DNA from: Watersipora subatra
Taxonomy: Eukaryota > Bryozoa > Gymnolaemata > Cheilostomatida > Watersiporidae
Length of the DNA stretch: 64,000 nt
NCBI RefSeq assembly: GCF_963576615.1
Contig: NC_088708.1
Location: 29,953,191 to 30,017,190 of the forward strand
Reading direction: 5' to 3'
Position 1 is the first letter of the stretch. The number at the start of each line of letters is the position of its first letter. The position numbers and the translations under genes are program-made. A model generated the notes under the pieces. It saw only the letters and a program-made list of their open reading frames with translations. It had not been told where the DNA came from and did not search any database. This document shows, piece by piece, positions 9,401-53,718 of this stretch.

Positions 9401-12400
9401 CCGGATTATTGTTATAGCCACCCTTAGATCGTATTGTGGAAAACAGAATCTCAATGTGATCCTGGTTGATCTTAAAGGTTAGGAAGTAGTTGATGTAAGG
9501 GTAGTTGCTGAAAAGATATTGAGCAATGCCATGTACAGATTTGGCTGCTGACTCAAAACCAATGACGAAATGATGATGATTTTCCTATTATTTTCCACTA
9601 GCAGCTTCCAGCTTGGTGTCTTTAATCGGCATAGATAGCTTATGATATTGTTGAGAACTTCTTGTTTTGAGTTGAAGTTCTGTTTTGTTATGGGCAATTC
9701 AGGATATACCTGGGGTGTTGTGGCTCTTCTGATGACATTTCACTAAGAATTTGGTCTTATTGTTACGATTATGACTTAAAAACTAGCATGCCAAGGGTGC
9801 TTTCACTACTAAACTCATTGCTCAATAGAAGGCTCTGTTGCTGTGATGCACATCACTACGACGTAACGTCGTGAAAACAACAGCCAATTATTATATAGGC
9901 CTCACTTTTGCTTCATTGTAATGATAGCTATTCGGCAATCTAGGGTTTACTATATCTATGGTCCACACTATAGCGCCCTATCTCGGCGTTGATGCCACAA
10001 TACTTCGGTGATCATCGATGATAACAATGTTAACACGATCACCAACCCATCAGCATTTGCATAACCAAATGACAATAGAGTTCTCACTTTTCTTTTTACT
10101 TTTTCATGAGGAAACCTCTCTGTTTTTGTGCGCTCGAATCAAATAATAGTCCTGCAGTGACATTCATAAACAAAAAAAGTCACGATATCCGCGGCTGCAA
10201 ATTACTATCGCCAAAACAGTTCACATTGCACAGGTTGTCGTTGATGCTCTGCGAAATATCGGGATAGTTTGACAGCTGCAAACATTGCCAACATATCTGC
10301 GTTGCTTCATTGATGCTATCAGTATCCGGTGCACATTGTCGACCATGAACGCCGAAAGGACAGCTCCGAAATACGGCGATATAGTGTGACCCAGGCACTA
10401 GACTTGTCAGGTAAAGGAAGACAATTTTGAAATATGATAAGAATGAAAAGTATCCATGTTCATGAAGAGGGTACTTTTGCCGCTGATGTTTATGCAAACT
10501 TATTACCTGTATTTAGTATTTATAAGGAATGTATTACCTGCTGCACCTAGTTGCAAAGTATTGTGTTATTAGGTTTGCTAATACATGTATTTGGAAAAAA
10601 ATTATTACCTGCTGCAATAAAGAAACAGGCAATGTGTTACCTGTTGCTAATATTTATGAAGCAGGTAATACCTGCTAGTAGTATTTATGAAGCAGGTAAT
10701 ACCTACTGGTAGTATTTAAAAAGAAGACATTACCTGCTACCCTTGTCTGAGAGAAATTTAATATCTGTCGATTGTGTTAATAAAAAATGTACTACCTGCT
10801 GCTGATATCTCTGGTAAGACCACGACTAGTAATTGATCGTTCTCTGAAGGGTTTTTATATACTGCTTATTTTAGACTAAATATTTATTACGTTCTTGTGA
10901 CATGGCTAGCTCTCTAGCTAATATAAGAAAACCAGACATAGCTGTTTAGCAAAACTTATTGATAAATATGCTATTTTGTGGTTACGTTGTATTATAAGCT
11001 TATAATATTCTGCGCTCTATACAAGATTTTAGTCAAGTTGTGTATATAAGGGCCCTATTTGTCTTGTAGTCTGGTTCTGTCCAAGCGAGGAAGGTTAGAA
11101 CTGCAACCTTTCCAAGTTTTCATGAAGTTATTTATATAGTTGTAACTACTGTCAGGTCACTGCACAGCTGTTAGTCATTATTACACATATGAAGGAGGTC
11201 TTCAACCTTTCTACATGCTTCGCTGATCTTGGTGATGCTTTCTGGCAGTGTTATCATTCTCTGCTTCAGCCTTGAAAATGAGACTTTCTTTTATAGTAGG
11301 CGCAGGAAATGAAACGCTGACTTTTACCAAGGTGTCTAGGAGTTTCGCAGACGGTTACTACTGCTCAGCTAAAAATAGCCTTGGTACCAAAGTTAGCTCT
11401 ACCTTGGAGCTGCAGGTTCAGTGTAAGTCTATATATGGTATCCTTTAGTCTTGGCTATAGTAAAAAACTATTTTGATCATATTTGTATTGTTGCGAGTGT
11501 TAGCACACAAATAGTATTTGTTGATTGCTGGAGTTTCAAAACAGCTAATAGAAGTCTGTGATATCGATATCTTTGGTTCTGAATAAAAATGTTTCGTTAG
11601 GCTGTCCGATAACTCAGTAAGCCGGCTATAACTTACATGAATCTATAGAGCTGATGTTCTCACTGATAGCGTGTCACTTAGGCTATTATACAGAATTACA
11701 TTGCTATAGAAAATCACAATGCAAAATAACAATTTATTTCTTTGAGCTACTTGGTTCAGTATAGACTCTCTTTATATTCTAACTTGATTCAAAGTGTCAG
11801 CTGATTCAATATGTAGTAGCTGGTAGTTTACTGGTATTCAGAAAATATAAATACAATTTAGTCTGTAAATCTAGAAATGAGTTTGACATGAGGATGCATG
11901 GAGACATTTTGTTGTTTCAGACCATCCTGAGAGGATAAGTGTGACCACTTCTAGTAGGAAATATACTGAAGGAACAGTTATGTCTAACATCACCTGCACT
12001 GCCAATGGACAGCCAAATCCCCAGTTTTCTTGGACTAAAGATGGTAGGTAGACCAGTCCCTCCTTTTCTTTCAGAATTAAATTGCAAGGCTGTTCATAGA
12101 GAACCGCACCATTATTTACTAAATTTTTTGCCTGAATGGCTTGCACTCCAACTTACACTCCATTCTACTCGCAAGTTTTTTGCATTTAACACAAAATTGA
12201 AGCAAATATCTCAAAGTACAAAATGATTTTTGTTATGAATTATTTCTAAAGTATTTTGAAACATTATGCTTTTGTGATTTAAAATAAAATAGTTAGTAGC
12301 TACAGTATGACAAATCAAATATAGATAAAATAATAATAATATACCATATAATAAACATATATTGTAAAGGAATTTGCCGGCCTTTACTTTGCACAATCTA

Positions 12401-15400: not shown

Positions 15401-17418
15401 AATCTCAAAACTTTATTATTTGCCGAAAGTATACAATCAGGCCTATTAATATATTTCTCGACCCATAAGTGTTAACCGCTCCTGCACTTTAGCATGTCAT
15501 TGCTTATTTTATATCTTGTATATTTATATGTAGCTCACCTGCAGACTATGGACAGTACAAGTGCAATGCATCCAACACCATGGGTTGGATGAAGGAGCCT
15601 TGTATTATAGAAATTGTCCCCTCATGTAAGTTATTAGTCACATCTACATACTGTAGTTTAGCATAGGCTGCAGCCTCACCTTTTTTGGCAATTTTAATTT
15701 GTAAGGTTTGTCTGCTCTATCAACAGATTTATCTCTAAAATAAATGCATAAGTAGCTCAATGGCTCAAGTAGCTCAGTTTTGTTAATAGTCTGAATTGAC
15801 ATGACTGTGAATATAGGGTAAGATAACTCCAGGTACACTTTATATGCCAGATTATCATTATAATGTAGCTGGTTATTTCCTGTTACTTGTTACCTGTTGC
15901 CTAACATACCTTGTTTTCTCTTGAGGATAGATAATTACACATAACAGATGCAAGACAGGTTTTGTACTAAACGCTTTTGGTAATAAAAATAGATGTAGCC
16001 AACCAAGGCTATTTTGCTAGTCTTGTTATTTTGCTATATTTGCTATATTGCTGATAAATTTGTTATTAGATCAAAAGTGCAGAAGAAGGCATTCAAAGTT
16101 TACTTTTTAAAAATATTTGCGATTTGAGGTTACAGACACATCATTCACTTGCTTGTTAGTATTTGGATATAAAAAAGGAAAGCACTTCATGTAATAGTAT
16201 TATAGTAACTAACCAATTTATACTTATAATAGTATGGCTACTTAATAGTATGGATACTTATAATAGTATGGTATACTTGACAACGTCAATTTTGAAGAAT
16301 GTTTATTGCTGTAATTTGGATCATGCGCACAAGCTAGCTAGATTAGTTTTGATAGTCATAGAGGGTGGCCTCATAAGCGTCCCGTTATAATGCCACTATA
16401 GTGATAACTTACTAATACTAGTACAATGAAGCTTGAAATTACAACCAAAATTTTGCAGTTGCTAGCAACGGCTCAGTTTGCAGTATTGGCAGCAAAGTTC
16501 AAGGTGGCAGCGATGCAGCAACTAGCATAAATGCACTTACACTTGGATGAACTATGTGCGGCAGCACAATTACAATTATCAGCACAGGCAACAATGTCCA
16601 AGTTGGCAGCAATGTCACTCATACTTGGCTATGCTGGCAGTGATGCCATAACTGACAGCAATACCATAGTTTTCTATGATGTCACACCAACCAGTAATAA
16701 TAGCGATGTGGCTAGTTCCCTGCAACAGATGAGTCCAACTCTTGTAAAGGTTGCAAAATGTTCAATTTCTTACTGTAAGACTTTTCCTAACAGCTCAGCT
16801 GAGAATTTTTAGTCATGTCACATGTCATTTACTGCATGGGATGTCATTCAACCTTGTGCTTCTGGCATCACTACTAACTGCATTCATAGACAAACACAAT
16901 TTTTAGTTTTGTTGCTGTCTTGTTGCAGCTAAACCGGATCCACCTACCGATTGTTATACAGACAATATCACGGATACCGGATTTGATGTTTTCTGTGTTG
17001 GAGGATTTTCTGGAGGTTCGACAGTAACTTACACCTTAGAGATTGCTGCGGATGGCTACCATCCTATCAGAGAGTCATCCTCCCCTTCCTTGCACCTCAC
17101 AGAGCAGAGACCTGATACTTTCTATTTGATGAGACTTTGTGCATCCAACCAAGAGTTTCCAACTGAGACATCTTGCTCAACTCTGTTCAACACTACCACA
17201 TCTGGTGAGCAACTAAAAATGGTTGATATTTGGAGTTATCATCTACTTATAGTTGCTCATTAAATGAAACTTTACGATTCACAGGAACTGGAGGTGTGGT
17301 GAAAAGGTGGAGGCCTTTGGAGCAGGTCAGATCATCTAGTGAAAGACTGAGTACGTACACCAGCGCCCTGATTTCTATTCATTTCTTACTCATCTCACTG
17401 GCTTGCCTGCTTGGCTAG
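298..17418 (+). CDS. Ig/FN3 cell-surface adhesion protein, 3' part of gene (13 exons visible)
   Basis: Thirteen exons join in frame: 298-492, 680-791, 1625-1842, 3575-3730, 5811-5936, 6698-6865, 11297-11422, 11921-12043, 13213-13347, 14524-14728, 15534-15625, 16929-17204 and 17285-17418 (TAG). Domain borders fall on phase-1 introns, as is usual for Ig modules. The order is V-like Ig (C-terminal half), CD80-like C2-set Ig, four I-set Ig domains each split over two exons, one FN3 domain, then a hydrophobic tail. Function is probably extracellular recognition or adhesion at the cell surface. The six-Ig-plus-FN3 layout with a CD80-like second domain recalls sidestep/nephrin-type receptors; I cannot name an orthologue. 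The signal peptide and first half-domain lie outside the window. Uncertain: the exon 6 to 7 join, where a phase-1 donor at 6866 fits best (a phase-2 donor at 6870 does not). A possible AATAAA lies at 17679-17684. Confidence 0.88.
680..1842 (+). CDS. Ig domain 2 (CD80-like C2-set), exons 680-791 and 1625-1842
   Basis: The first exon carries the B-strand cysteine (AICRT), the GGRPAP motif and the C-strand NVTW typical of CD80-like C2 domains in nectins, SynCAMs and sidestep proteins. The split Trp codon (phase 2) is completed in the second exon, which has the WQLTCSV F-strand. The intron between (792-1624) holds only a purine/pyrimidine-alternating tract. Confidence 0.8.
1300..1425. repeat. Alternating purine-pyrimidine tract
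   Basis: An irregular run of TGTA, CATA, CGCG and TGCATGCG steps in the intron of Ig domain 2. No unit of fixed length; the composition is of the Z-DNA-prone kind. Confidence 0.6.
1870..2390 (-). pseudogene. Non-LTR retrotransposon reverse-transcriptase C-terminus, copy A (dead)
   Basis: The reverse strand reads, across several stops and shifts, the conserved C-terminal block of a LINE family common in invertebrates: a WDFSIHTDQLI-like start, LDIIVQDKE, RYQDLAREIRR, VVPMLVGALG and ARILRKVFDIPG. It ends in a (TAA)n-like tract near 1875-1910, as these elements do. It lies inside the intron of Ig domain 2-3. Confidence 0.6.
2395..3065 (-). pseudogene. Non-LTR retrotransposon reverse-transcriptase C-terminus, copy B (dead)
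   Basis: Same orientation and family as copy A: HWSICMKHW, LWDFSVQTDQLIEARRP, KYRELGIELGQCRDVSS and IIIGALKT are recognisable, with many stops. Its own (TAA)n-like tail is at 2395-2465. A further AAT-rich tract follows at 3080-3115. Confidence 0.6.
3575..5936 (+). CDS. Ig domain 3 (I-set), exons 3575-3730 and 5811-5936
   Basis: Exon 3575-3730 has LILECLVDANP and the ITWYHD C-strand. Exon 5811-5936 has the DEGNWHCEATNSLG F-G signature of I-set domains. Both joins are phase 1. The intron holds a TA-flanked MITE at 3897-4343; I recognise nothing in 4346-5810. Confidence 0.82.
3897..4343. mobile_element. MITE with TA target duplication (Tc1/mariner-like)
   Basis: The ends are imperfect inverted repeats: CAGTGACAGTGTAGCGACGC on the left, and CAGCGATAACATAGCGACGC read inward from the right. 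Both sides are flanked by TA (3895-3896 and 4344-4345). There is no coding capacity. TA duplication and CAGT ends suggest the Tc1/mariner group. Confidence 0.7.
6698..11422 (+). CDS. Ig domain 4 (I-set), exons 6698-6865 and about 11297-11422
   Basis: The first exon has TLVCKVKADP and LYWYSD; the second has LTFTKV and DGYYCSAKNSLG. The acceptor at 11296 follows a pyrimidine tract, but AGs at 11299 and 11305 are alternatives. The last one would give an in-frame TGA when joined to the phase-1 donor. The 4.4-kb intron is filled by the P-like/Tigger nest. Confidence 0.72.
7347..8597 (+). mobile_element. Tigger/pogo-type transposon, internally deleted
   Basis: The left end CAGTAATACTTCAACTTATG and the right end, read inward as CAGTCATACTTCGACTTACG, are diverged inverted repeats of the pogo/Tigger kind. 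The right flank is TA; the left is TG, apparently a mutated TA. Coding remnants of the transposase N- and C-terminus are kept, but the DDE core is gone. It inserted into the P-like element. Confidence 0.82.
7553..8140 (+). pseudogene. Tigger transposase remnant: CENP-B-type HTH plus C-terminal PIP-box-like end
   Basis: The frame at 7553-7786 holds the pogo/CENP-B helix-turn-helix (RMITIDIKRKIIEKYAK, then LAQQYDRNTSTII). The next stretch (about 7790-7930) still reads like the second CENP-B domain (MERLLRLWIKDKQMAGD). The frame at 7928-8140 ends the protein with RQRQTSLDRFL, matching the QxxLxxF PCNA-binding box common at Tigger C-termini. The catalytic DDE region between them is deleted. Confidence 0.75.
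9192..9741 (-). pseudogene. P-element/THAP9-type transposase C-terminal fragment
   Basis: Two overlapping reverse-strand frames carry the P-transposase C-terminal block: LPITKQNFNSKQEVLN, then LTFKINQDHIEILFSTIRSK, GGYNNNPDV and FRSALRALFIKADI. This is the conserved segment shared with THAP9. A frame break lies near 9480-9500. The THAP DNA-binding and catalytic N-terminal parts are missing. Confidence 0.8.
10500..10805. repeat. Degenerate tandem repeat containing GTAATACCTGCT
   Basis: About seven imperfect units of 40-55 bp, each with a TATTTATGAAGCAGGTAATACCTGCT-like core (partly palindromic), in the long intron of Ig domain 4. The best pair is near 10655-10720. Confidence 0.55.
11921..13347 (+). 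CDS. Ig domain 5 (I-set), exons 11921-12043 and 13213-13347
   Basis: The first exon reads SNITCTANGQPNPQFSWTKD; the second has ADYQGNYICKASNYLG. This is a textbook I-set domain with phase-1 borders (GTAGGT and GTATGT donors). A probable solo LTR (12363-12759) sits in the intron. Confidence 0.84.
12363..12759 (-). mobile_element. Probable solo LTR
   Basis: A block of about 397 bp begins TGTAAAGG and ends CACCACA (TGT...ACA ends). It is flanked on both sides by ATAT, a weak 4-bp duplication in AT-rich DNA. On the reverse strand an AATAAA lies about 70 bp before the end, as in an R/U5 region. Its base composition differs from the surrounding intron. No internal region is attached. Confidence 0.45.
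13348..16928. other. Introns of the 3' half of the Ig gene: no recognised feature
   Basis: The stretches 13348-14523, 14729-15533 and 15626-16928 are AT-rich intron. Near 16440-16800 there is an irregular GGCAGCAATG-like repetition with a 93-codon open frame. I see no coding or transposon signature in it. Confidence 0.5.
14524..15625 (+). CDS. Ig domain 6 (I-set-like), exons 14524-14728 and 15534-15625
   Basis: The B-strand cysteine is in VACRVRANP; the usual C-strand Trp is replaced (VVFSYR). The second exon gives PADYGQYKCNASNTMG. Donor GTAGGT at 14729 ends in phase 2 and matches the phase-2 acceptor at 15533. Donors at 14710 and 14712 give other frames, so this join is inferred from domain continuity. 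Confidence 0.72.
16929..17204 (+). CDS. Fibronectin type III domain exon
   Basis: A single phase 1-1 exon opens with KPDPPTDC and carries the FDVFCVGGFSGG strand-B/C pattern, YTLEIA, and a YLMRLCASN F-strand, which together indicate FN3. Extra cysteines are present. It ends at a GTGAGC donor. Confidence 0.75.
17285..17418 (+). CDS. Terminal exon with hydrophobic C-terminal tail (GPI-signal or short TM)
   Basis: It encodes about 44 residues. A basic/polar stretch (VKRWRPLEQ, then a Ser-rich segment) is followed by about 18 hydrophobic residues reaching the stop codon (ISIHFLLISLACLLG). With no cytoplasmic segment after it, this looks more like a GPI-attachment signal than a normal membrane anchor. 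Confidence 0.7.
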
Positions 17419-18415
17419 TGTATAACTCTTCTTTGAATCATTTGTCAATATAAGCTTTCGTTGTTGTCAAAACAGCTTTCAGCCTGTTTATATCTCATCA
17501 AGTTTGACACAAGTTGAGGTTCCCTGACAGTTCTTTTGAGACTCTTTATGTTCTGATAGATTGCATAGACTCTCTATGTTCTGATAGGTTGCATAGCCAT
17601 GTTTTAGATCCAAAGCAACTATGATTGGATGTATTTTGTATACATGTTCTCTGTATACAGTTATACATGTATACAGTAAATAAAAAATACAATAACAATA
17701 AGACTCATTGATGAATAAAGAGTAGGCTACAAAAACTTTTCTTGACCTTCAGAACTTAGTCTAACAATTGCTTAGAAAGTCCATATTAATAAATAGTACT
17801 TTTCCATTGTGTGTGTCTGGTAGTCTGCGTATACGCTATGCGTTTCCACAGACTAACTAATTAATTATATGAGTAAGTGTACCTTTAAGGCGTGGTCACA
17901 CGAGCACCGAACCGACGTAAGATCGGTTCGGAGGTTGGTTCGGTTCGTGGCACATGTCACACGGCCACCGAAGTAACTTCGCTTTTTAGATACCATACGT
18001 ATAGAGACAGGACACGGTTTCATTAGTAGTTTTTATGTATTTGAGTTAAGTATTTCTATTGTAAACAAAAACTTTGAAGAACAATTATAAATTATAATTA
18101 CACAGCAGATTTATCAGAAGATCGTTCAGCTGCTCAAAATAAATCACTCGATACAAAGATTTTGCCAACCCTTCCCATCAACATAATTATATTTTTTTAT
18201 TAACATATGAATGTTTTTCTATGCTGAGTACATAACAAACAAAAACAGTCTTTATCATAGTACTGTGGTTTTACATAAATAAATCAGTCAACGATACTTC
18301 ATCAGGACGAATATGACACATTACTTATATTCTACACGAAAGAAAATCACCACCATTCTCTTACATTTATGCAAAACTTAAGTGCAATATCTTACATTTA
18401 TGCAACAATCATAAG

Positions 18416-18682: not shown

Positions 18683-19765
18683 TCAAAAAAGATGATAATC
18701 TGCCAGGTTTGGGGGAGGCCTTCCATCCCGAACTGGTCTCATGTGATTGTCATTGTCAATATCATCTACATCTGCTACCGGATTGTCAACATGGAACTCC
18801 ATCTCAATGCCTCCAGCACCACACTGCGTCTGCACCACATCATTTTCGGAGCTACATCTCTCACTATCAGCGCATCTTACATCAGCGACATGTCGATTCA
18901 CACCATTCACTTCCAGAGTATGTTCACTGACAATATTTGTGACATGTCCAATCTTCCATGGAGAGTCACATCTAGCATTTCTAGGTTTGACAAAAACCAT
19001 GTCTCCCACTTTGAAAGGGTTATATTTTGCGCTCCTTGATCCCACATCCTTCTTGCTCGCACCTGGTAGCTTGGTCTCATACTGAAACAGGGCTTGCATC
19101 GGCTCCGTGCCGTCTGAATTAGGAGAGACATTGTACCAATATACCATGGCTTCTACCGATCCTCCAGAGCGCGCAACCATCCGTTTGATTGTTCGATGAT
19201 TTCTTTCTACGATACCATTCCTTGAGTGCCTGTATGCACAGCAATACACTGGCGTGACTCCCCACCTCTGTAGGAACTCTTTAGTCCGAGTGCTTGAGAA
19301 GCATGGCCCGTTATCCATCAATAACTCTTCAGGCGCTCCTCTCTCATGAAACACTCTCATTAGCTGCTTTGTCACTGCATCTGCTGTCTCATTCTGCAGT
19401 GGCATCCATGTGGCATATCGACTGGGACCGCAATCAACAAGTGTTAAATAAGATCTTCCTGCCACAAAGGCAACATCTACTGCCAGCCGAAACCATACTG
19501 TGCTCACAGACAGCTGTCCATGTTCTCAGCGCACTGGGTGTGGATCAATACTTCTACATTTCTGACATGCGTTAACCACTTGTTCTACTACATCACACGT
19601 GATCGCAACTCCTGTCATTTTCTGTACCAAGTACAGAGTTCGGTCAATCTCGAGGTGATGTCGTTCATGATTTTTAATCACCACTGACTTCATATCTCTT
19701 CCCTCACTGTCATCAGACAACACACTCAGACACACCTTTGACTCTTTCAGCCACTTCAGTGGCAC
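18683..19765 (-). pseudogene. pol: Retrotransposon integrase, split by one stop
   Basis: The zinc-binding part is at 19526-19765 (HERHHLEIDR, then CQKCRSIDP). The core is at 18683-19507 with all three acidic residues: LTLVDCG, MDNGPCFSS and NGIVERNHRTIKRM. A TGA at 19526-19528 separates the two parts in the same frame. The C-terminal basic module (GDMVFVKPRNARCDSPWKIG) is also kept. No chromodomain is seen. Confidence 0.87.
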
Positions 19766-19825
19766 CCGTGTTAGTTTGTCTGCTAAGTTCCTCTCTGAGG
19801 GAACCAGAGTTACATGAACATCCAG

Positions 19826-20980
19826 CTAATAATCAGCAATGATCTGTGCAATGGTCCCGAGCCTTCTCTTAATAACCATTTCACTTAATCCACTAACCTT
19901 TGAACGCTTGGTGCCTTCTAGTATTGACTTCACCCACGCATGCACACTAGCAGAGTCAGTAACTACTTCGGCTCTCCTCAGCCCCCAGTGCAGTATCAAA
20001 TTTATACCTTTAATCACAGCTTCTAATTCTGCAATGTTAATGTGGGACACATCATCATCCTTCCGTAGCCATGATGCATCTTCAACTATATCCTTATCTA
20101 TCTGCAGTGCACACCCTATAGCTGTGCTACTGGCATCACACCATATCACAGCTTCTTTGTCACACATCACACTCCATGTTCCCTTCACAGGATCATGATT
20201 GTCAAGTCTCTGAGCCAAGTCTTCAACTAGTGATGTAACGTAAAAGGGCAATACATCATTCCACTGAATTGCATTCGTCTGGCGTTTTATGTAACTGCAG
20301 GCCACTCGTAACCAGCCTGCTACAGGATAATGGCCGGTTAGCTTGCCGCAAACAGAGAACAATTTTCTCTTGGTAGATGCTTTCTTCGGATCAGGTAACA
20401 GCCCGTCTCGCTTCCATTCTAACTTTGCTGTAGGCCCAGATACAACACAAAGACCGAGCACTCGAGTGTTTACGAGATTCTCTGGGTTTTTGGTCACCAG
20501 TCCATAACTGAGCAGGTGTTTCTGCACCCTCTTTGGTGATACCACTTCCTCATTAACCCATATATCATCAATGTAGTGATCTGTCCCCTCCTTCACTTCT
20601 TTGTCCAAAGCAAGGACTGCACTCACTATTCTCGACATGATCTTGAGGGCAACATTCAGTCCAAAACCCATCCTAGTCATCACATATAACCTCCCCTTGT
20701 ACTTCACAGCTTGAAACCTTCTTAGCTTATCTGCGATGTGAACCTGGAGATAGGTTTTTTTCAGATCTAGAATAGAAGCCTTGCCTATTCCCTTTCTCCC
20801 AGCTCTCAGCTTTTCCTGGCACACAGCAGTGTCTTGACCTGGAAAACTCCTAACATGCTGGTTAAGTTCTCGATAGTCCATCACTGGTCGCACTTTTTTT
20901 GGTTTATTAGGCTGTGTCGCCGCCATCAGAGGTATTATGCCGCTAATATTTCCATGCACACTACTATCATACGCCCGCAA
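19826..20980 (-). pseudogene. pol: Retrotransposon reverse transcriptase and RNase H
   Basis: RT motifs in order: VRPVMDYRELNQH, ASILDLKKTYLQVHI, MTRMGFGLNVALKIM and the catalytic HYIDDIWV (YIDD). RNase H follows with the catalytic IWCDASSTAIG, NIAELEAV and VVTDSASV. The normal VDYR...FGL...YxDD spacing places it in Ty3/gypsy. The frame ends at a TAG (19826-19828), after which the coding sense continues in frame (PSERNLADKLTRVP). Confidence 0.88.
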
Positions 20981-21025
20981 CCAACCATCTACTATCCATC
21001 GCTCTACCTCGTTACAGAACTCCTC

Positions 21026-21640
21026 TCACGGTTCTTTGGAAACGGAATATTCTGGACACGTATTTCTCAACTTTAGTTCTCCATCCTTCCATTTCCACTC
21101 TGCGACCCACTTTCCACCATCAAATACAGCTGTAAAATCATTGTCTTCAACTCTCAGAGCTCCGTCTCTACCTGAGGTCACCATTCCAGCTGCACAACAT
21201 TGATAGCCCCAGGTCACGCTGCTGTCTTTACCAATCAACACGCCTCCCATCTTAGTGATAATATCCATTCCCAAGATAACATGAGCGCTACACACCAGTG
21301 CTGGTGCTACCAGGCACCTATTTGTTACCTCCAGTCTATCAACAAATAGGTCTACATCTGCCTCACCAATGCACAGTGTCTTCTCGCCATTTAGCATTGT
21401 CACAATTCGTGGTGGTCCTAATGCAACAATGTCATTATCTGCACACATCTTTTTAGTAACCACCGATTTCTGACACCCCGAATCAGCTAAAGCTTTTAGT
21501 GGCCTTTGATTTTTTGATATGATAGTGATAAATGGTAACACCTCGTCAGCTATTGTTGACTGGGGGAAGCATCTGGTGCTGATGCTCCCCCTTCCATGTT
21601 TTCCGTCTGACCCTGTTTTGACACAAGTTTCTGGGGGCAA
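21026..21640 (-). pseudogene. pol: Retrotransposon aspartic protease (start of Pol)
   Basis: Frame -1 relative to Gag. The aspartic protease motif is ALADSGCQKSVV (DSG in place of DTG, acceptable in this family), followed by VILGMDIITKMGG, the ILG flap-adjacent motif. The frame is stopped by a TGA at 21026-21028 and then resumes in the same frame into the reverse transcriptase, so the stop is a point mutation or a readthrough site. Confidence 0.82.
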
Positions 21641-22329
21641 CTTCTCACTATGTGGGACTGATCACCACAGATATAGCATGCTCGGAATTTTCGGGGATTA
21701 GCACCACTATTCGGTTTCACCCCCCTTTTCTGTGAACAGTCTCGGGCGAGATGAGACACTCCACATATATAACAACTTAATTTTGGTTTGTGTCCATATT
21801 GGCTGTAGCCCACAGCACAGGCTTGACTACCTGATCTACTGGACAACATCAGTCTGGCGCGCGCGACCAAATCAGTCAACTCCAGGGTTTCTACCGAAGC
21901 CATCGATTTCAGTTGAACAGATATGTCCAATGGAAGGCCAGTCATAAATGCACATTTCAGCAAGGAGTCAGCGTCTGTCTGTCCAATTAGATTAACCAGC
22001 TTTCTTAAATCAGATAGATATACATCTACCGTCTCCCCTTCTTGTAGGACGCGTCTCTGAAGCTGGTCGTAAGCAGCATAGCAGTTGACACCAAACGCCT
22101 GGAGCATCGCAGGCTTCAGCTTCGCGTAATCATTTTTAGTTTCATCTCTCAGCTGCTTATAAACAGCAAATGCTGGCCCATTCAGAAACAAAGACAAGAA
22201 TGCTGTTAAATCGTCGATTTTCTGTATCCTTACTACCAGTTCAACTTTCTCTAGCCAGTCAGCAAAATCTCCACTCGTTTGTGAATCCTCATATCTTGAA
22301 ATTACATCCGATAACTTCAGTTTCGCCAT
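21550..22329 (-). CDS. gag: Retrotransposon Gag (capsid/nucleocapsid)
   Basis: An open 259-codon frame beginning 20 nt inside the 5' LTR. The N-terminal part resembles retrotransposon capsid (a YEDSQTSGDFADWLEKVE helix, later GETVDVYLSDLRKLVNL). The C-terminus has two zinc knuckles: CYICGVSHLARDC, spaced CX2CX3HX4C and so one residue short, and CYICGDQSHIVRSC, the standard CX2CX4HX4C. The frame is intact. The protease frame overlaps its 3' end in the -1 frame, so Pol is probably made by -1 ribosomal frameshifting between about 21658 and 21550. Confidence 0.85.
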   Translation of the reverse strand: MAKLKLSDVISRYEDSQTSGDFADWLEKVELVVRIQKIDDLTAFLSLFLNGPAFAVYKQLRDETKNDYAKLKPAMLQAFGVNCYAAYDQLQRRVLQEGETVDVYLSDLRKLVNLIGQTDADSLLKCAFMTGLPLDISVQLKSMASVETLELTDLVARARLMLSSRSGSQACAVGYSQYGHKPKLSCYICGVSHLARDCSQKRGVKPNSGANPRKFRACYICGDQSHIVRSCPQKLVSKQGQTENMEGGASAPDASPSQQ

Positions 22330-22348
22330 TTTTATTGCCGAAATAGCT

Positions 22349-22583
22349 TGTGGTTAAACTGTTGGCACTTTAATATACATAAGCAATCAGCTAACTCGTC
22401 GTTATTATTTTATTGCACTCTCAATAATCCAATTAGTTCACAGCCAAAACGTGTACAATACTAAAGAAACGTGTTCGCTAGATCGTGTCCCATACGCATG
22501 TCTCCACAGGTCAAGGTTAGCAGCACTTAGTTAGCATGACAGCTTTACGTAAAGTTACATGTATAAAACAACACTTCAAAACA
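22349..22583 (-). repeat. 5' LTR of the Ty3/gypsy element
   Basis: The partner LTR, also 235 bp. On the reverse strand it starts TGTTTTGAAGTG and ends TTTAACCACA. It adjoins the ATAAG duplication at 22584. Confidence 0.9.
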
Positions 22584-22802
22584 ATAAGTTCGGGTGAACC
22601 TTGTAAATTGCTTCATGTTGTTTATTTAACGAAATAAAAGTATCGTGCCATTTCTTTTTTAACTTTACTCACACGCACGTAAGGAGAAATGTGACGCGTG
22701 CTCGCTAGAATTCTAGAATTTTAACCAGCCAATAAGAGCAAGTGTTCGGCCACGAAATTTTGAGCAGTACCGAAATGGTTTGTTTCGGCTAGAAATGTCT
22801 TC

Positions 22803-23624
22803 AGGCGTTGTCACACGAGCACCGAACCGACGTAGGTTCGGTTCGGAGGCTGGTTCGGTTCGTGGCACATGTCACACGGCATCCGAAGTCACTTCGCTTT
22901 TTAGATACCATTTGTATAGAGACAGGACACGGTTTCATTAGTAGTTGTTATGTATTTGAGTTAAATATTTCTATTGTAAACAAAAAATTTGAGGAACAAT
23001 TATAAATTACAATTACACAGCAGATTTATCAGAAGATCGTTCAGCTGCTCAAAATAAATCACTCGATACAAAGATTTTGCTAACCCTTCCCATCAACATA
23101 ATTATATTTTTTTATTAACATATGAATGTTTTTCTATGCTGAGTACATAACAAACAAAAACAGTCTTTATCATAGTACTGTGGTTTTACATAAATAAATC
23201 AGTCAACGATACTTCATCAGGATGAATATGACACATTACTTATATTCTACACGAAAGAAAATCACAACCATTCCCTTACATTTATGCAAAACTTAAGTGC
23301 AACATCTTACATTTATGCAACCCAATCACAAGTCCGGGTGAACCTTGTCGTAAATTGCTTCATGTTGTTTATTTAACGAAATAAAAGTATCGTCCCATTT
23401 CTTTTTTAACTTTACTCACACGCATGTAAGGAGAAATGTGACGCGTGCTCGCTAGAATTCTAGAATTTTAACCAGCCAATAAGAGCAAGGGTTCGGCACG
23501 AATTTTCGAGCAGTACCGAAATAGTTCGTTTCGGCTAGAAATGTCTTCGGCCGAACTTTTTACAGCTGAGAGCAACGTCGTTTTGCGTCATTTAGTTCGG
23601 TTCGGTGCTCGTGTGACCACGCCT
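22803..23624. mobile_element. Inverted-repeat DNA transposon, inner copy
   Basis: An uninterrupted 822-bp copy of the same family, inserted in the outer copy near its right end. It is flanked by a 3-bp duplication, TTC (22800-22802 and 23625-23627). Its own sequence shows the unoccupied site (GTCTTCGGCCG), proving the boundaries. It also shows the empty site of the Ty3 insertion, near 23325-23340. Confidence 0.85.
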
Positions 23625-23703
23625 TTCGGCCGAACTTTTTACAGCTGAGAGGAACGTCTTTTTGCGTCATTTAGTTCGGTTCGGTGCTCGTGTGACCCCG
23701 CCT

Positions 23704-24312
23704 TAAGCCTGCATGTGTACATGTGTACCTTTAGCCTGCATGTGTTTATGTGTACCTTTAGCCTGCATGTGTACATGTGTACCTTTAGCCTGCATGTGTA
23801 CAAGTGTACCTTTAGCCTGCATGTGTACATGTGTACCTTTAGACTGCATGTGTACATGTGTACATTTAGAGTGTATGTGTACATTTAGAGTGTATGTGTA
23901 CATGTGTACATTTAAACTGTATGTGTGCGTGTGTACATTTAGCCTGTATGTGTACATATGTACATTTAGACTGTATGTGTGCATGTGTACATTCAGCCTG
24001 TATGTGTACTTATGTACATTTAGCCTGTATGTGTACATGTGTACATTTAGACTGTATGTGCATGTGTACATTTAGCCTGTATGTGTGTATGTACATTTAG
24101 ACTGTATGTGTGCATGTGCACATTTAGCCTGCATGTGTACACGTGTACATTTAGCCTGCTTGTGTACATTTGTACATTTAGCCTGTATGTGTACATGTGT
24201 ACATTTAGCCTGCATGTGTACATGTGCACATTTAGCCTGCATGTGTACATGTGTACACTTAGCCTGCATGTGCGCACGTGTACATTTAGCCTGCATGTGT
24301 ACATTTAGCTTG
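23704..24312. repeat. 27-bp minisatellite
   Basis: About 22 units of GCCTGCATGTGTACATGTGT plus ACCTTTA (27 bp), some shortened by 6-8 bp. Left units have ACCTTTA and right units ACATTTA. Because 27 is divisible by three, long meaningless open frames occur on both strands. One partial unit lies on the far side of the nested transposons, at 17877-17887. Confidence 0.9.
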
Positions 24313-24601
24313 ATAGTTTTAATTAATGCATGTAGAAACAGTAACAACATTTAAACATCAGTGTCAGTAGTCTTTTTTATTATAAAATTTGAAAAATTTA
24401 AAACTTGCTGCATGTATGATGTTGATATGACAGAAATGTTTTAACACATGAGCTACTCTTGTAAAACATTGTGACTTTGTTGCCCTAGAGTGTCTGGTCT
24501 GCACAATGTGCCAGAGAGATGGAAGCCAACATAAAAATGAGCAAAAATAATTGAAACATTCTCAATGATGAGTACACTTAAGAACGGAGCTGAAACAAAA
24601 A

Positions 24602-27600
24602 TCATGCAAACATAATAGGAGAAATTAAGATGGTTAGTAGAGACATCAATAGTGCATTGTAAGAGATGGAACTGGCATCACTTGCTAAAGTGACGTTCAA
24701 CTTTGTTGTTGTTAAATTTACTTTTGAAACAGTCGATGTAGTAGTACTCAGAGAGGCAATGACTGCTGGTTTATCAAATGATGTTGAAATATTTAGAAAT
24801 TCACTATTAGTTGTCTCCTCTTGTTCTATGAAACAATTTTGCTTGGTTTGCTCTATCATATCCTCTATATCTTCATTTTCACAGGCTGGACGGGAATAAT
24901 TAGCTGTGCGTCTGCAAATGGGAAAGCGGTGTAAGCGCTTGTAATATATACAATGTATATGTAAATTACACTGCAATCACTTACACGCTTTTTTAGCCTA
25001 TGTTTTAACACCTAAATGTAGGTTGTATCTATTATACTTCAAGCAATGGTAAGTAGTCAAACAATACAAACACCTTTTTTAGCCTATGTTTTTAGCACCT
25101 AGCTTGTATCTATTATGCTTCATACCAAGATAGGTAGTCAAAAATTATGACGTTATAAATTATTTTTACCTTAAATGGCCCACTGTACAAAATATTTAAA
25201 AACACTATTGCGTAAAATCACTTTAACATCCGGATCACAGTCTAGTAGCCTAATAGGAGTTGTCTTACCTACACGGTTGCTCTTCTTTAACACCTACACA
25301 GTCCGCTTTGTATAGCCTCTTGTACTGATTTACACAAAGACTAAAGTCATAGTCACACGTACAGAGCTTATATTTACATTCATCTTGGTCCTCCACTGCA
25401 AAATTTCATGATTTTATGACAGCAATTTCTCTTAACAAATAGACATACTCGGCATCTTCTGAAACTTGCATGAAAGAGACTTTTACCTCAAAATGTAGAG
25501 TATAAATTTTCATGTTCGACATGAAATAAAACCATGGTGGTATGTAACATTTAATGATGTGTATGACATGAGATACATGGACAGCCAGATTGAGCAAATT
25601 CAAAAACGTTTTGTAATCCAAAAGATAAACACTCAAAAATCTGACAAGGTAGGACCAAACTTAGTGATTTAACAAAAACTGATCTACCAAAAATGCATTA
25701 ATGAATTTAATCTATGGCATGAAAAAATGGTTTAAGCATTTGCCTTGGACTACTTACCACATGCATAGTTGGTGTCATTAAGTGTGTAGCGTGAGATAGA
25801 ATAGAATGAGTACTCATAGAAGCAAGGAGTCTTTAGGGCAGCGTAGCAGTTGTCATGATGGAAGCAGCATCTACACCACAGAGTAGAACAGTGACTACAG
25901 TGGCTATAACAAGATAAGTAACAGCTAATCAAACATATCTGACCTATATATTGTGATAGAGGGGGCTAGTAACAACTGTAAAAATTTACTTGCCTTTTAG
26001 TTCACATTTAAGAAAAACGTTAACCAGGCGTTATGAATTCCTAACATTGTTACCCGATGAAAATGGTCGTAGTTACAATCATATATTACTTATATTACAA
26101 TCATATATTACAATCATATATTACAATCATATATTACAATCATGTATTACATATATTACAATCATATATTGCTTATATTACAATTATGTATTACTTATAT
26201 TACAATCATATATTACATATATTACAATCATATATTACAATCATATATTACAATCATATTTTACATATATTACAATCATGTATTACATATATTATTATAT
26301 TGCAATCGTATACTAGAAATGTCCCAGTCATACAGCCCAGGACCAAAGTGATAATGGAAAAAAGAAATGGTACTGCTGGTTGAGAAATGCAATATTAGCA
26401 GTCAAATGGTACTGCTAAAGGCGAACTGCAAAGAGATTGGCTGGCAAGGCAGGTTGGTCAACACGTCAACGAAGGACAATGATGTCAATTTGTTGTATTT
26501 GGCGAGGTAAATTTATAACAAAGTCATTTATGTTCCGAGGGAAATTGATGACATGACCTCTGAACCCAAATTGGCCACCACGCGGAAGACGGAATATTGA
26601 CCTTGTAGGATAAACCTTAGCAATGAGTAACTGTGAGTAACTGTTCTATAAGTGTAAAAGAAGATAACAATTCAACAGATGGACCTGGATCCACATTGTT
26701 GGCTGCACTGAATTTATTAACAGTGTCAGGTCTAACTTGTTGGCACGTATGACATAGTTGTATTTGAGTATCGTATGTCATGACATGTTTTTCATTACAT
26801 CCAGTACATGTGAGCTGTGATATGTTGTTGTCAAGTCTGCCTAGAAAGTTGTTACGCAGTTCTTAAAAATCAAGACTATCTAAAGATTGAAAATGAGGAA
26901 TGTGATGAAGAGGGGCAGCATTGGGAGGAGCAATATTGTTTTGTGCAATATTTTCATAGTCAATGATGTCTATAAAATCATGATCATCATCTGGAAACAA
27001 AGGGGCTGCCAAGTCCATGTCATTTACATCGCTTACAACATCTACTAAAGAATTCTCTGAACCAGATGAGTTGTTGTTATTAATTTGAGTAGTGTGTTGT
27101 TGAACATTAGCATTAAGTTTTGATGTTGATGGTTGCTGTGAGGACCTTCTATTTATCCTCCTATTGAGCTGTAATAATTGAGAGATACGCGGACGGCAAC
27201 TGCGTTGGCGACGGCCACGACGTGGTGTCCTGGGAAGTTGTATGTCCATGGTAGTTGTCAAGTTGTTTTGAAATTAAATTCAAAAAGTTAACTATGCAAA
27301 ACAAAAGGTTGTATAAAAATCACACCTAATCTACTACTACCTCAAACCTATGTTTTACAACAATAAAATAAATATTAATTAAAGCTGTAGGCCTTACCTA
27401 CTGTACGATATGTAATTTAACAACAGCAATAATGAAATATTTTTATTATATCTTGAAATGTAATATTAGAAGTAAAATGGCAAGCTGTTGTGTAATATAC
27501 ACAGTTTGAAAGTTGGTTGTGTTGAATGTAGTATGGTTTTGATAGCGATCTGTTATAGAAAGCGAGCATCAGCATTCACGCGTCTGGAAGTTTTCTGCAA

Positions 27601-30600
27601 ACTGGAGCAAAATAAAAAAATGTTCTCGTCATAAGAGGGCATTGTAGTTCGGCCTTAGCTTGTACATAAGATGTAAAGAATTTTGGCTAACGTTCTAAAT
27701 AATTTAATGAAACCTTTGGTAATTGGACAAAAAAACAGGCTGATAAACTGTGTACCACAATTTTGTACCTGTAAATAAGTCTACGCCTCAAACGGTCTAT
27801 GCTTATTACAGAAACCTTCGGATAAATAAATTCAAATGATTATTCTTATAATTAAGTCTTTTAATAATTTTATAAAATCAAATAATTATTCTTATAATTA
27901 AATATTTTTGCAAGATATTAAAAACGGAAAGATATTAGAAACCTTTGGCAATTGGACAATGCCATAGACAAGCCATCGTGAAATGCGCACAACTTAATGG
28001 TTCTACTCTCTGTCGCACGGCCTTGTCGGCGTTTCGTCAGCCAGTCTTAATTTGGTTAAAAAAGGCTTGTCATGGTTTTAATGGTGATTTTAGGCCAAAT
28101 TAATCTGTCTGTTTATGTATAATCCGATCAGATGGGTTAGTTTTAGGATATTGTCTACAAATTTCAAAAACTTGGTAACATATTTAAACAGGTTTATATG
28201 CGTTTTGTGTCGTTATTATACTTAAACGACTTCATAGAAAAATGATTAAATTTGTTGATAAGATTTCGGTACAAGGGTTTGCGATGGCCGCTCATGAATA
28301 ATTTTCGTGAGTTGTGTGCACATATGCATTTATCATAAAGCTCTCAAACAATCGCTTCGCTCGTGATTGGTCATGGGATTACTTATATTATAATCATATA
28401 TTACTTATATTACAATTATGTATGACATATATTAGGCTACATTCATATACTACATATATTACAATCATATATTAGTTATATTACAAATATGTATGACATA
28501 TATTACATTCATATATTGCAACAGCATATTATTTAGATATTGAAATTTGAAAAACAAGAGCAAATGATCCTGAAAAATTGTTTTTTGAAGAAAATTTGAC
28601 CAAAAATTCACTTTGTAATAAAAACGAAGATCATGCTGTCAAAAAGCATCGAAACTGGCTCAAAATATCTCTCATAATCAATCAGTCAGCTGTGCCAACT
28701 CCTACACTACTCTCCCGACAGCAATCCATAAACATGTCTTATTGTCCTATTGTCTTTAAAGCACGCGAAGGTATATTCTTGATTTTCTAGTCAGATCGCA
28801 GTGCATTTATATGTAAAGCGAAAGCTTTAAACTGCCAATTGAGCCTTACATTACTCCGAGTGAGTCTGTTTTTTACATTAAATAAACTGTAGGCAACATG
28901 TCGAGCTTGGGCAGTCCACTCTTATAACCTTTTCCTCACGTGGGAATCTTTTACCGTCACGGAACACCACTCCTATTATAGTACAAATTATTTTACGACT
29001 TCAAATTCCAAATTAGTGCAGTTGGCAGAGCGACTGCCCGCCTACTTGAATGTTAGGAGATTGAAACCTGTACAAAACATTTCAATTTTTATGAAGTATT
29101 TTAATTATTGCTTGTATCATTTATTTGATGTGACAGTTTCATACAAGCTTAGAAGATCAATGTTATATATGTAGTTGAATATTATTACCATTGGCTGTTT
29201 TGACTATATGACATATTGTACATCCATGAATACAAAAAGTAACCAGAAAATGCTGACTACGCAACAAATTTGTTTATGAATACACTTACAGTTAACTATA
29301 ATATCTTAAAATCTATGATTGATTCAAACATAAAAACTTACTACAGTAGATGAGATATATGTACAAAAGAAGGATTGTTGATATATCTCATTGTTGGGCT
29401 AGAATAATCTTTCTGGAATGTGACTATTACTCATCGCTTCAAGTTCTATCAACTGTAAACTATAACATAGTTGTCTTCTCTTTAAACTCACTTATCTAGA
29501 CAATCAATTACTTTTCCATTCGCAGAGCTGCCCAGTCCACAATAACATCCATACTGAGTGAGAGTTAGTGGATCAATTCCTCCGAGGTTTCTTATCAGCT
29601 GATAGAACTGCAGCAGGTCACCTGCGTACCGCATAATAATATTGAACTTTGTTTTAAAAGGTAACACGTGTTAACAGAAACATATCTTGCTAATGTACCA
29701 ATGCATGAGCTCCCAATTAGGTTTGCTGGTTTCCCCCTTCCAGACTACAAAAACTCCATTCTCCCCTATTCTATCAGGCTTCGCTTTCAATCTGCATACG
29801 TCTTTATATTTTGTCATTTTTGCATTCCACAGCACCAAATATTAAGTATCACAGCATGTAGTAGTTCAACTATCTTTATAAAGGTCAGGTCAGCATCTTA
29901 TTGGTGACCAGAGCCGTATAGTTTCACAGAGTCCCGCGACTAACAGAAGCGTATACGGGAGCTCGCTCGATTCCAAACAAACAGGCCACGCCTACTATTT
30001 TTATATAAGTTATAATGGAGAGGTCGCAACATTAATCAACAAAAACTACTCCCATTAGCAGTCACTTTAAAATTGATTGTTGTATCATGAACCATTTGAA
30101 AGAAAACAAAATTTCCTACAAAAAGCTGCTAATAACGTTTTTGTAAAAACGTAAAGTAAATGCAAAAAAGAGCGGTATTGAGAGCGAGGTATGAATATTC
30201 CATTAGAGATCAGTATGTCGATCGGGTTGGTTTGGAATCCGACGTTTTTGTTTCCGGTTTTAGTCGTGAGACTTTTTAAAGCTATATGACTCTGCCAGTA
30301 CAGAGCTGTATAACTTCACAGAGTTTCGCTGCTAACGGATGCGCATATCGGAGCTCGCACGGCTCCAAACAAATAAGCCGCGCCCACTATTGTTTTATAT
30401 AAGTTATAATGGAGAGGCCGCAACACTAACCAACAAAAATTACTCCCATTGGCAGTCGCTATGAAATTGATTGTTGTATTATACACCATTTGAAACAAGA
30501 CAAAATTCTCTACAAGAAACTATCAGTGATTTTTTGTAATAAAGTAAAGTAAATGCAAAAGAGTGAGATGTTGAGAGCGAGGTAAGAATATTCCATTAGA

Positions 30601-32118
30601 GATCAGTATGTCGATCGGGTTTGTTTGGAATCAAGCGTTTTTGTTTCCGGCTCTTGGTCACGGGACTCTGTGAAACTATACGACACTGTTGGTGACAAGG
30701 AAGTGGAAAATCCCCAGTTATAAAAAGTATGATAAAACTATGAATCACAAGATAGTACACAATGTAATAAACACTCAGTTTATTAACAACAAACAACGAT
30801 ATGCAGCATGTAGGGAACTATTATGCCCAGCTTTACAAATACGATGTATCAGCAAAAATTTATAAATAAAGGCCAGAATTCTCCTAAAAATGAAAATTTC
30901 TCCCTTGGGGGAATTCCCCACCATTTGGGAACCACTGTACTAATGAGTTAGCAAACTAATAAAAGTGTGTGTGATCCCTCGAACATCGAGTACGATGTCT
31001 GCTTAGGTTATTGCAAGCAAAGGCTGTGGACAGGTTTTTAAGAGCATTGTTGTACAAACAATGTCTCAATAGCAAGGAAACCTTGAGGACTGGAGACACG
31101 CCCAGTTGCCTAGAGAAAATTAAGGTTGGATGCCACTTTTGTCACCACCTATGGCCTTTTTAGAGACTCAAACCACAACATGTTGTTAACAGGCCGGACA
31201 CTCTGAACCAGTAGAACCTGACATCTATTTAACTACACAGGTATAGTACAGTACTAGTGCAAGGATATGCAAACTCACTATAAACAAGCATAATAATATA
31301 TTAATATACTAATATACTACCAGTGAACCAATAAATGACTGTTCTTAAATTCATTGCAACTCAATATAATCACACTTGATTCAAATTATTATTGAACTCT
31401 CTATAGATATTCCTTTATCTCTACTAAAGTACAGTTTAGTCCATAATGTTTCTAGAACTTTGTAAGTTTATTTTTGTCATGCGAGGTCAAGTGAAGTGAC
31501 CAGTGATAATAAATTGTAGGCCTACAATGATCTCTATTGGTTATTGTTTGCTCAGTGGTAAGAAAGAAGAGCCCATGTTCAAAATCTGTAGTGAAATACG
31601 ACTATATAGGTTGTCTTTTTTTCTGCATTCAACAACTTTAGGATACAAGAAAAAATTACTTTTTCTGGCAGCATAGAAAGCGTATTTTGTAATTTTTTGA
31701 CATATAGTCTCACTATAACTGCTTGTTTACTGACAGCATAGAAACTGGCAGCGTGTGTCTCAGAATACTGCTGATACTTAACATAGAGGTAACAAATCTG
31801 ACACTTAACATAGAGGTAACAGACCTGCTTGATTATAAACCATTTGTTTTATATGTAAAGCAGTCATCACTATGTTTATGGAATCGTAAATTTTTTCAGA
31901 TTGGTCAGTGCAACTATCATTGAACAAGCTCACACTGTATATTACTTCGTGGTAGAATGACTCCATTACCTCACCTTTACATGCTTTCCTACTAGAGCCT
32001 ATTGCTACTTACGATCTTTCTAGTGATCACGAGGAAGAAGAGGGTAGAGACATCCCTTACCGCTAACTAGTAGGAGAAAACTCAGCATCAGCAAAGGTGT
32101 CCATAGTTGTCCAGTCAT
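24602..32118 (-). CDS. Secretory phospholipase A2 with Ser/Thr-rich stalk and GPI-signal-like tail
   Basis: Five coding exons on the reverse strand: 32061-32118, 29492-29621, 25758-25870, 25269-25395 and 24602-24911. They join in phases 1, 2, 1, 2 into 245 codons plus stop. Residues 1-20 are a signal peptide. The Ca2+ loop is YGCYCGLG (43-50), followed by a loop two residues longer than usual. The active site is CCFHHDNCY with catalytic H68 and Ca2+ ligand D69; the second catalytic Asp is D115 in LCTCD. The cysteine pattern fits group I-like enzymes, which hydrolyse the sn-2 ester of phospholipids outside the cell. Residues about 160-224 are an added Ser/Thr-rich stretch with NIS, NLT and NVT glycosylation sites. 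Residues 227-245 are hydrophobic to the stop. A possible polyA signal is at 24376-24381 (reverse strand). Confidence 0.93.
26075..26312. repeat. AT-rich TATATTACAATCA repeat, left half
   Basis: About 20 imperfect units built from ATATATTAC and AATCAT. It continues beyond the Helitron at 28379-28530, so it is one array cut by the insertion. Confidence 0.8.
26313..28378 (-). mobile_element. Helitron, truncated replicase-bearing copy
   Basis: On the reverse strand the element begins TCCCATGACC after an A and ends TTTCTAG before a T, the TC...CTAG ends and A/T insertion site of Helitrons. It split an AT-rich TATATTACAATCA repeat array, found at 26075-26312 and again at 28379-28530. An inverted related copy with the same ends lies at 59591-61101. 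It occupies the intron between phospholipase exons 2 and 3. Confidence 0.82.
26430..27261 (-). pseudogene. Helitron replicase N-terminal remnant
   Basis: It opens with a 132-codon Arg-rich frame (26863-27261), then a TAA, then continues in frame with two Cys pairs (CTGC, CHTC) and the DUF6570-like block FSAANNVDPGP. A frame shift near 26620 leads to FRLPRGGQFGFRGHVINFP and IDIIVLR in other frames. These are the conserved upstream segments of Helitron Rep/helicase proteins. The Rep and helicase catalytic parts are absent. Confidence 0.75.
28379..28530. repeat. AT-rich TATATTACAATCA repeat, right half
   Basis: Same units as 26075-26312, in the same orientation, starting directly at the Helitron end. 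Confidence 0.75.
28985..29065 (+). repeat. tRNA-derived SINE-like head
   Basis: The stretch GTTGGCAGAGCGACTGC and a following GATTGAAACC resemble the A and B promoter boxes of a tRNA-derived SINE. No cloverleaf closes, so it is not a tRNA gene. Confidence 0.35.
29909..30688. mobile_element. hAT-like MITE, tandem dimer
   Basis: Two copies (29909-30294 and 30301-30688) lie head to tail with a 6-bp spacer. Ends are CAGAGCCGTATAGTTTCACA and, read inward from the right, CAGTGTCGTATAGTTTCACA. The pair is flanked once by an exact 8-bp duplication, TTGGTGAC (29901-29908 and 30689-30696). CAG-starting ends with 8-bp duplications are hAT features. There is no coding capacity. It lies in intron 1 of the phospholipase gene. 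Confidence 0.85.
30850..30937 (-). mobile_element. hAT-type end fragment
   Basis: The reverse strand starts CAGTGGTTCCCAAATGGTGG, a form common at hAT element ends, then a CCCCCAAGGG stretch. I find no matching second end, so only a fragment can be claimed; its left limit is arbitrary. Confidence 0.4.
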
Positions 32119-52496: not shown

Positions 52497-53630
52497 TCAA
52501 TGACAGTGCGATAAAGCTGTACTGATTGCAGGGATAACAACTGACTGAGGAGTGTACTGGTACACATTGTGAGTTGCGTATTTCATAGGTGATTCTTCTT
52601 GCTCGCTTGTTACCGAGTTCCAGTCTATAGACTGAGGGCTATAAGATGTTTCGCTAAAATAGTCGGGGCAGTCTACACTAGCAGGAGAAGAATACTGAGC
52701 ACATTGGCTAGGATTGTACTGCCAAACCGGTTCAGGCTTAATATTAGCGTAGTTTTCACTGATGGGTGGAGGGCTGTAGGTGGAGTAGGGTGGGCTGCAC
52801 TGCTCTTCCACACTGCTGGTTGACTCTGAGTCTTCATTCATGCTATCCATAATCTTTACTGCTTCGGACAGTGCTAGAATGTAGTTGTATGCGTACCTGT
52901 GAGAAAAAATTACATGTTAGTAGAACTAGACTAGTAAAAGTGAATTTATCGATTTTTGAGTAACTGTTAAATCTTTAAAAGACAGATACCTGTATCAAAA
53001 ATACCAATGCATCTAAATATCCAGTCACCTAAATTATTACTATGAGAATATTCTACAGCAGTTGTGGAAAAAGAGCAAACTTGCTTATACATAGCACGAG
53101 CTTTTATGCCAGTTTTGTGATAAACGAGAAGGACATATATTGTTTAGTTGAGTTTTTAAATAAACAAATACATAGAATGAGATTTATGTCAAAACAGAAA
53201 ATGCCTTGATAACCTTTTTATTAACTAGCAAGAAAAACAAGCTCGCTGTATTACTATAGCCTACTACTCAATATCGAATGGGCTTTTTATGATTGTGACT
53301 TGAAAATCAATTTTCCTACCTGAGGGTTTCGATCTTAGTGAGCTTCGTCTCTTCATCTGTTTGCGGCAGCATCAGCCTTAACTCATCTAGTGCGCTGTTC
53401 AAATCATGCATTCTGTTTCGCTCTCTGTTGTTTGCTTTATTGCGCCTTGTCTTTTTAATTTTATGCAGAGTATCAGGACTTCTGGCTCGCGTTCGTTTCG
53501 CTCTTTTCTTTGGCTTCTCAGACCCGTCAACGCTTGAATCAGTAGAAGCAATCCTTTCAGTGCTGTTCAAAGATTTCACATCCATGCTCGCCGCTTGCTC
53601 ACTCTCCAAGGAGTTCAGCTGCTCACTCAT
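52497..53630 (-). CDS. neurog: Neurogenin-family proneural bHLH transcription factor
   Basis: Two exons on the reverse strand, 53320-53630 and 52497-52896, join in phase 2 into 236 codons plus TGA. The bHLH spans about residues 62-115: basic region [17 protein letters not shown], helix 1 [11 protein letters not shown], then [19 protein letters not shown]. The NRERNRMH basic region and KLTKIETLR are diagnostic of neurogenins as opposed to NeuroD, Atonal or Olig. A Lys/Arg-rich segment before it (39-50) looks like a nuclear signal. The C-terminus is Ser/Pro/Tyr-rich (repeated YSP), a probable activation region. Neurogenins bind E-boxes with E proteins and commit cells to neural fate. The first ATG follows a 5' region with no closer in-frame start. 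Confidence 0.95.
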
Positions 53631-53718
53631 TGTTTTTGTCTCTGTTTGTACTGATGGATCAGTTATGAATCGATTGAATGGCGTGTGCCTGTTAAATACG
53701 GATTCAGAGGCGGACAGC

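Follow-up and report, generated by a model that had tools for sequence, protein, structure and literature searches.

A secreted-type phospholipase A2 gene whose last exon encodes a tail with the layout of a GPI-attachment signal

Secreted phospholipases A2 (sPLA2s) have been studied mainly as free enzymes. One described protein, oikosin 44 (oik44) of Oikopleura, has a PLA2 domain and, in the available part of its publication, is called secreted and predicted to be GPI-anchored (PMC3390340). The same authors suggest that oik44 serves as a membrane link in house building, and that the PLA2 oikosins act in innate defence or pre-digestion. In mammals, sPLA2s can bind GPI-anchored glypican, according to an excerpt of PMC8741859; no anchored sPLA2 appears in the available portions of that paper or of PMC7603386, and the PLA2s of PMC11083476, PMC5465252 and PMC11452194 are soluble or unspecified in the text available for each. 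Within the open-licence PMC literature, which lacks most subscription journals, GPI- or membrane-anchored PLA2 as an exact phrase returned no paper. Among the matches listed there, as far as titles and the starts of abstracts reveal, no GPI-anchored animal PLA2 was recognisable besides that of PMC3390340.

The gene described here lies in a stretch of 64,000 nucleotides (the window, to which the coordinates below refer). It would make a conventional calcium-dependent secreted-type PLA2 that a GPI anchor tethers to the outside of the plasma membrane, a reading to which we assign a probability of roughly 0.7. The gene has five exons on the minus strand (32118–24602), with GT..AG introns in matching phases. 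Its splicing, which we infer from the sequence, gives a product of 245 residues, open throughout, in which a signal peptide is followed by a complete secreted phospholipase A2 and then by a tail encoded by exon 5. The putative exon 1 (32061–32118) contains the start codon and the predicted signal peptide (MTGQLWTPLLMLSFLLLVS plus the first base of Gly20), and ends at the donor GCG/gtaagg. It is the least certain exon: stricter donor rules yield no candidates and wider rules yield 17, and the exon chosen, on hydrophobicity, phase and donor, is the most hydrophobic of the 17 listed first-exon candidates in the right phase. The N-terminal signal peptide looked for in a GPI protein is thus predicted from these three properties.

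Exons 2 and 3 both lie within the match to the PLA2 family PF00068. Exon 2 (29492–29621) encodes the N-terminal helix and the calcium-binding loop (YGCYCGLGSS), while exon 3 (25758–25870) encodes the catalytic helix DKCCFHHDNCY and shares K63 with exon 2. Exon 4 (25269–25395) supplies the remainder of the core (CTCDYDFSLC ... ADC ... EEQPCR), and a stop codon stands in frame immediately across its donor. Exon 5 (24602–24911) encodes the entire C-terminal tail and the stop codon. It is preceded by the acceptor gctttcccatttgcag, the first base after which is 24911, and is joined in phase 2, without a stop, to the exon 4 donor TAG/gtaaga; its stop codon, TGA, occupies 24604–24602. The length of the product, 245 residues, is the one given in the earlier note. 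An AATAAA polyadenylation-type signal is found on the same strand at 24376–24381, about 220 bases past the stop. Some 70 bases beyond this signal lies a 27-base tandem repeat of 22.6 copies (23706–24304), which is adjoined by a 79-base duplication at 23546–23704.

The stop codon across the exon 4 donor bears on whether both soluble and anchored enzyme are made, an idea compatible with the GPI explanation and one that we consider possible, if unlikely. Were intron 4 kept, translation would halt directly after exon 4 and give a precursor of 143 residues whose core is complete; exon 5 splicing would then act as a switch between a soluble and an anchored form. Reading through the donor does give EEQPCR followed by a stop, albeit this is weak evidence, since any GTAA donor at a phase 2 junction creates such a stop. 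The number of cysteines left without exon 5 is even (14), consistent with a soluble form, but intron 4 has none of ten polyadenylation-type hexamers.

The core of the proposed GPI-anchored enzyme is supported by searches. PF00068 matches the product of exons 2–5 with an E-value of 1.5e-17 and 64.5 bits against a curated cut-off of 32.1, over residues 2–106 of this 225-aa product. In the PDB, 151 distinct sequences were matched at E <= 0.001, the best of them being 1ozy (4.9e-14, residues 2–103 of the same product). NCBIfam, a prokaryote-oriented library, gave no match to the whole product. The catalytic motif DKCCFHHD at residues 62–69 fits DXCCXXHD, and the calcium loop YCGLGS matches XCGXGG except that the last Gly is replaced by Ser (both motifs as given in the available part of PMC3111613). 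The catalytic residues H68, D69 and D115 are all present, and the 12 conserved cysteines of the six-disulfide set were found at their assigned places, in agreement with the PDB alignments. We take H68, D69 and D115 to be positions 48, 49 and 99 in the usual sPLA2 numbering, and positions 11, 77, 50 and 73 are likewise placed on the product by our own presumed mapping; Tyr73 is placed differently by two of the PDB alignments. The PF00068 match, the three catalytic residues and the 12 cysteines agree with the earlier description of the catalytic enzyme as intact, and with its catalytic residues in place the enzyme would be expected to be active.

The same description had called the enzyme group I-like, and here the cysteines do not agree. 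The group I pair Cys11–Cys77 is absent, cysteine being missing from DLLQFYQLIRNLGG and from the stretch that separates C79 from C100. The group II Cys50, the partner of a C-terminal cysteine in that group, is absent as well, the residue after His-Asp being Asn70; therefore neither group fits. The core appears to be a conventional sPLA2 of no clean group, with a cysteine pattern nearest to that of group V and with additional cysteines. There are four of these, C60, C142, C153 and C169, which probably form two more disulfides.

Exon 5 codes for residues 143 (shared with exon 4) to 245, and thus adds a tail of about 102 residues, where about 85 had first been counted. The part up to residue 169 holds two cysteines. 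Residues 170–219 (24683–24832, minus strand) form a Ser/Thr-rich stalk in which Ser and Thr make up 36% of residues, compared to 9.8% of residues 21–143, and which contains the N-glycosylation sequons N183, N208 and N215; a fourth sequon of the tail is N147. A Ser/Thr-rich, potentially glycosylated stalk had been proposed, and is borne out by these figures. The stalk is followed, in order, by the small residues ASDAS, a spacer, 16 hydrophobic residues and the stop codon. The hydrophobic run, LLMSLLTILISPIMFA (residues 230–245, 24605–24652, minus strand), has nothing after it; it reaches the stop as the earlier note had said, although it is shorter than the 19 or so residues given there.

This arrangement corresponds to the published layout of a GPI-attachment signal, with a predicted attachment site at S220 or D221 within ASDAS (24677–24682, minus strand). 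The PredGPI scheme, as set out in the available part of PMC2571997, comprises small residues from -1 to +2 around the site, a spacer and a hydrophobic run. If S220 is the site, residues -1 to +2 read ASDA, all of them small, SSISYNA fills +3 to +9, and the run begins at +10, which matches this scheme. The spacer of 9 residues and the run of 16 also fall inside the ranges of 8–12 and 15–20 found in the accessible text of PMC9098846. The small residues, spacer and hydrophobic run to the stop that were looked for in a GPI protein are therefore all found, with thresholds set in this analysis. The mean hydropathy of the last 20 residues is 1.66, a value that 6 of 199 frame ends reach or surpass, the tail's own included. 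Pfam and the PDB held no match to the tail. That other frame ends reach this hydropathy counts against the GPI reading, as does the linker just before the site, LTTTKLNVTLA, which is mildly hydrophobic (mean 0.65). Taken together, a GPI signal is the likely reading of the tail, albeit unproven.

A hydrophobic C-terminus of 16 residues could also span or dip into the membrane, and the run might then be retained as a short transmembrane segment that anchors the PLA2 to the membrane in the absence of GPI. The run is short, however, contains Pro241 and is followed by no residue, notably no basic one, while the small residues and the spacer occupy the places that a GPI signal demands. We therefore regard a transmembrane anchor as distinctly improbable.

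The GPI reading also depends on exon 5 being the real last exon. If the gene ended after exon 4 or elsewhere, the tail would be a chance frame. Markov simulations built from three sources leave an equally long frame open in 0.065%, 0.105% and 0.06% of cases, and the phase match, the good acceptor and the AATAAA in its place likewise argue against chance. Nevertheless, 27 of 2039 YAG sites on the same strand, and 12 of the 1905 on the opposite strand, precede stretches of at least 101 codons that are open in that phase, so that an open frame alone is no proof of exon 5, which is predicted from genomic sequence. The rarity of the GPI layout among frame ends and shuffled sequences is a further argument. 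A loose GPI rule is passed by 3 of the window's 199 frame ends with 60 aa or more, by 9 of the 580 with 40 aa or more, and by 1.25% of 20,000 sequences obtained by shuffling the last 97 residues. A stricter rule, derived from published layout descriptions, is passed by 2 of the 580 frame ends (the same two among the 199), namely the PLA2 tail and a low-complexity poly-Asn/Tyr frame, as well as by 17 of 50,000 sequences in which the last 102 residues were shuffled and by 0 of 5,000 Markov ends; the thresholds of these rules were set after the tail had been seen, and the pass rates are accordingly descriptive. On balance, a chance frame is very unlikely.

Among the three longer frame ends that pass the loose rule, one is that of the frame at 17286–17419 (plus strand), which resembles the terminal exon of a further gene. 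Frames that appear FN3-like by eye (16929–17419) run into this exon, which has a GPI-like end (...RLSTYTSALISIHFLLISLACLLG, stop codon at 17417–17419); Pfam gave no match at 16907–17260. With a second exon ending in a GPI-like signal, a second gene of the window may encode a GPI-anchored protein.

Least probable by our estimate is removal of the tail on secretion as a C-terminal propeptide to leave a soluble mature enzyme: group IIF sPLA2 does carry a C-terminal extension of 30 residues that includes a cysteine, and the available part of PMC3111613 mentions no anchor for it, but the hydrophobic run to the stop found here has no counterpart mentioned there.

The GPI-tethered PLA2 thus remains the preferred reading, because of the PF00068 and PDB matches, the matching exon phases, the AATAAA, the rarely open frame, the GPI layout and the precedent of oik44. 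In this model, the signal peptide would take the chain into the ER, and the PLA2 core would fold with its six usual disulfides and probably the two more drawn from the extra cysteines. GPI transamidase would then cut after S220 or D221, and GPI would replace the hydrophobic end. The glycosylated stalk of about 50 residues would keep the enzyme at a distance from the membrane. There it could act by contact and not by diffusion, hydrolysing phospholipids of bacteria, food particles or neighbouring membranes.

Elsewhere in the window, a bHLH frame (PF00010), an ion-transport frame (PF00520) and a weak Ig match below the cut-off (6577–6930) point to an animal. GH6 (PF01341), a domain fused to cellulose synthase in tunicates, had 0 matches in the animal's genome and likewise 0 in 14 control genomes, and so does not discriminate. 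The bHLH gene (52500–53717, minus strand; PF00010 at 53319–53717) looks neurogenin-like, and its domain is apparently split by an intron, since the second helix seems by eye to continue in the frame 52500–52916, which has no Pfam match. A retroelement in separate open frames occupies 18683–22353 (minus strand). It comprises a gag-like frame with a zinc knuckle (PF00098 over and PF03732 under the cut-off), a reverse transcriptase/RNase H (PF23088 and PF13456 over, PF00078 under) and a frame that is integrase-like by eye. Beyond it lie two similar stretches (ggtgaaccttg...taaattgcttcatgttgtttatttaacgaaataaaagtatcg..., 22588–22760 and 23333–23540), which by eye are possibly repeat- or LTR-like. 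The RNase H C-terminal domain of a TNP-like transposase (PF21789 over the cut-off) is found at 9195–9584 (minus strand), and a 32-base tandem repeat of 13.6 copies with 98% match at 55333–55768. Rfam and tRNA searches of the window gave no match.

Related genes were sought in the animal's own genome (784 Mb, 239 contigs). The tail found only itself at E <= 10, with five candidates scored, a lack of relatives that counts against the GPI reading. PF00068 gave two matches, both below the cut-off: exon 2 of the PLA2 gene (E 0.29) and a locus, L003 (E 8.7), which was rejected as a paralogue, its frame being without a PLA2 motif. This search missed the known exons 3 and 4 and was positive in 0 of 14 control genomes, and is thus not sensitive to genes split into pieces. 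For the motif CCxxHDxCY there were 7 matches, compared to 2 for a reversed control. One is exon 3 of the PLA2 gene, one is a group XII-like exon, and five were judged to be chance, two by a stop inside the motif and three by their frames. The group XII-like exon (L011, G000:C2:4712095-4712278) owes this label to a frame with QCCNDHDVCYAICGKDKAQCDVELQRCAQRVC, which resembles group XII PLA2. No neighbouring PLA2 motif was found within about 30 kb at the four CCxxHDxCY loci scanned; the group XII-like locus is among these, and the neighbour check therefore does not separate loci. The calcium-loop pattern YGC[YF]CGxG matched once, in the PLA2 gene itself, with 0 matches for the control.

Such patterns miss variants, as well as motifs split by introns. 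With this qualification, the single occurrence of the calcium-loop motif suggests that the animal may have no other conventional secreted PLA2 with standard motifs. Among prokaryote and viral contigs, 20 and 10 stretches, respectively, matched a pattern for relatives of the 245-aa product and none was confirmed, which says little, as prokaryotes and viruses were the collections searched. A further suggestion, tentative and on present evidence rather doubtful, is that the animal's only conventional secreted PLA2 is GPI-tethered, a diffusible class having been turned into a contact-acting ectoenzyme, perhaps with a soluble form obtained by intron 4 retention.

A PLA2 that brings its own anchor would be active only at its own cell, a point relevant to how a membrane-digesting enzyme is confined in an animal. 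If tethered, the present enzyme would be the second case after oik44 in the literature searched, and would suggest that tethered sPLA2s are overlooked because their tails lie in an exon of their own at the end of the gene. Of the earlier interpretation as a whole, the sPLA2 core and the GPI layout are retained, while the group I label and the supposed lack of precedent are not.

Compared with known enzymes, group I sPLA2s, pancreatic and elapid (group labels that we assume for these entries), are among the PDB matches of the core, which is missing their Cys11 and Cys77. Group V sPLA2, according to the available part of PMC3111613, has a conventional core that lacks both the group I and the group II disulfide, as does the present protein by our own mapping. 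It is described there as the simplest, without a C-terminal extension, whereas the PLA2 reported here has four extra cysteines and a tail. Group IIF sPLA2 of mammals, as described in the same part of PMC3111613, also combines a conventional core with a C-terminal extension holding a cysteine; that extension has 30 residues and no anchor is mentioned for it, whereas the tail here has about 102 residues and a GPI-type end. With oik44 the protein has in common both a PLA2 domain and a predicted GPI anchor, a likeness drawn from the published description of oik44 in the available part of PMC3390340, and one that makes it the precedent which the earlier note, knowing of no standard family description with such a tail, had not named.
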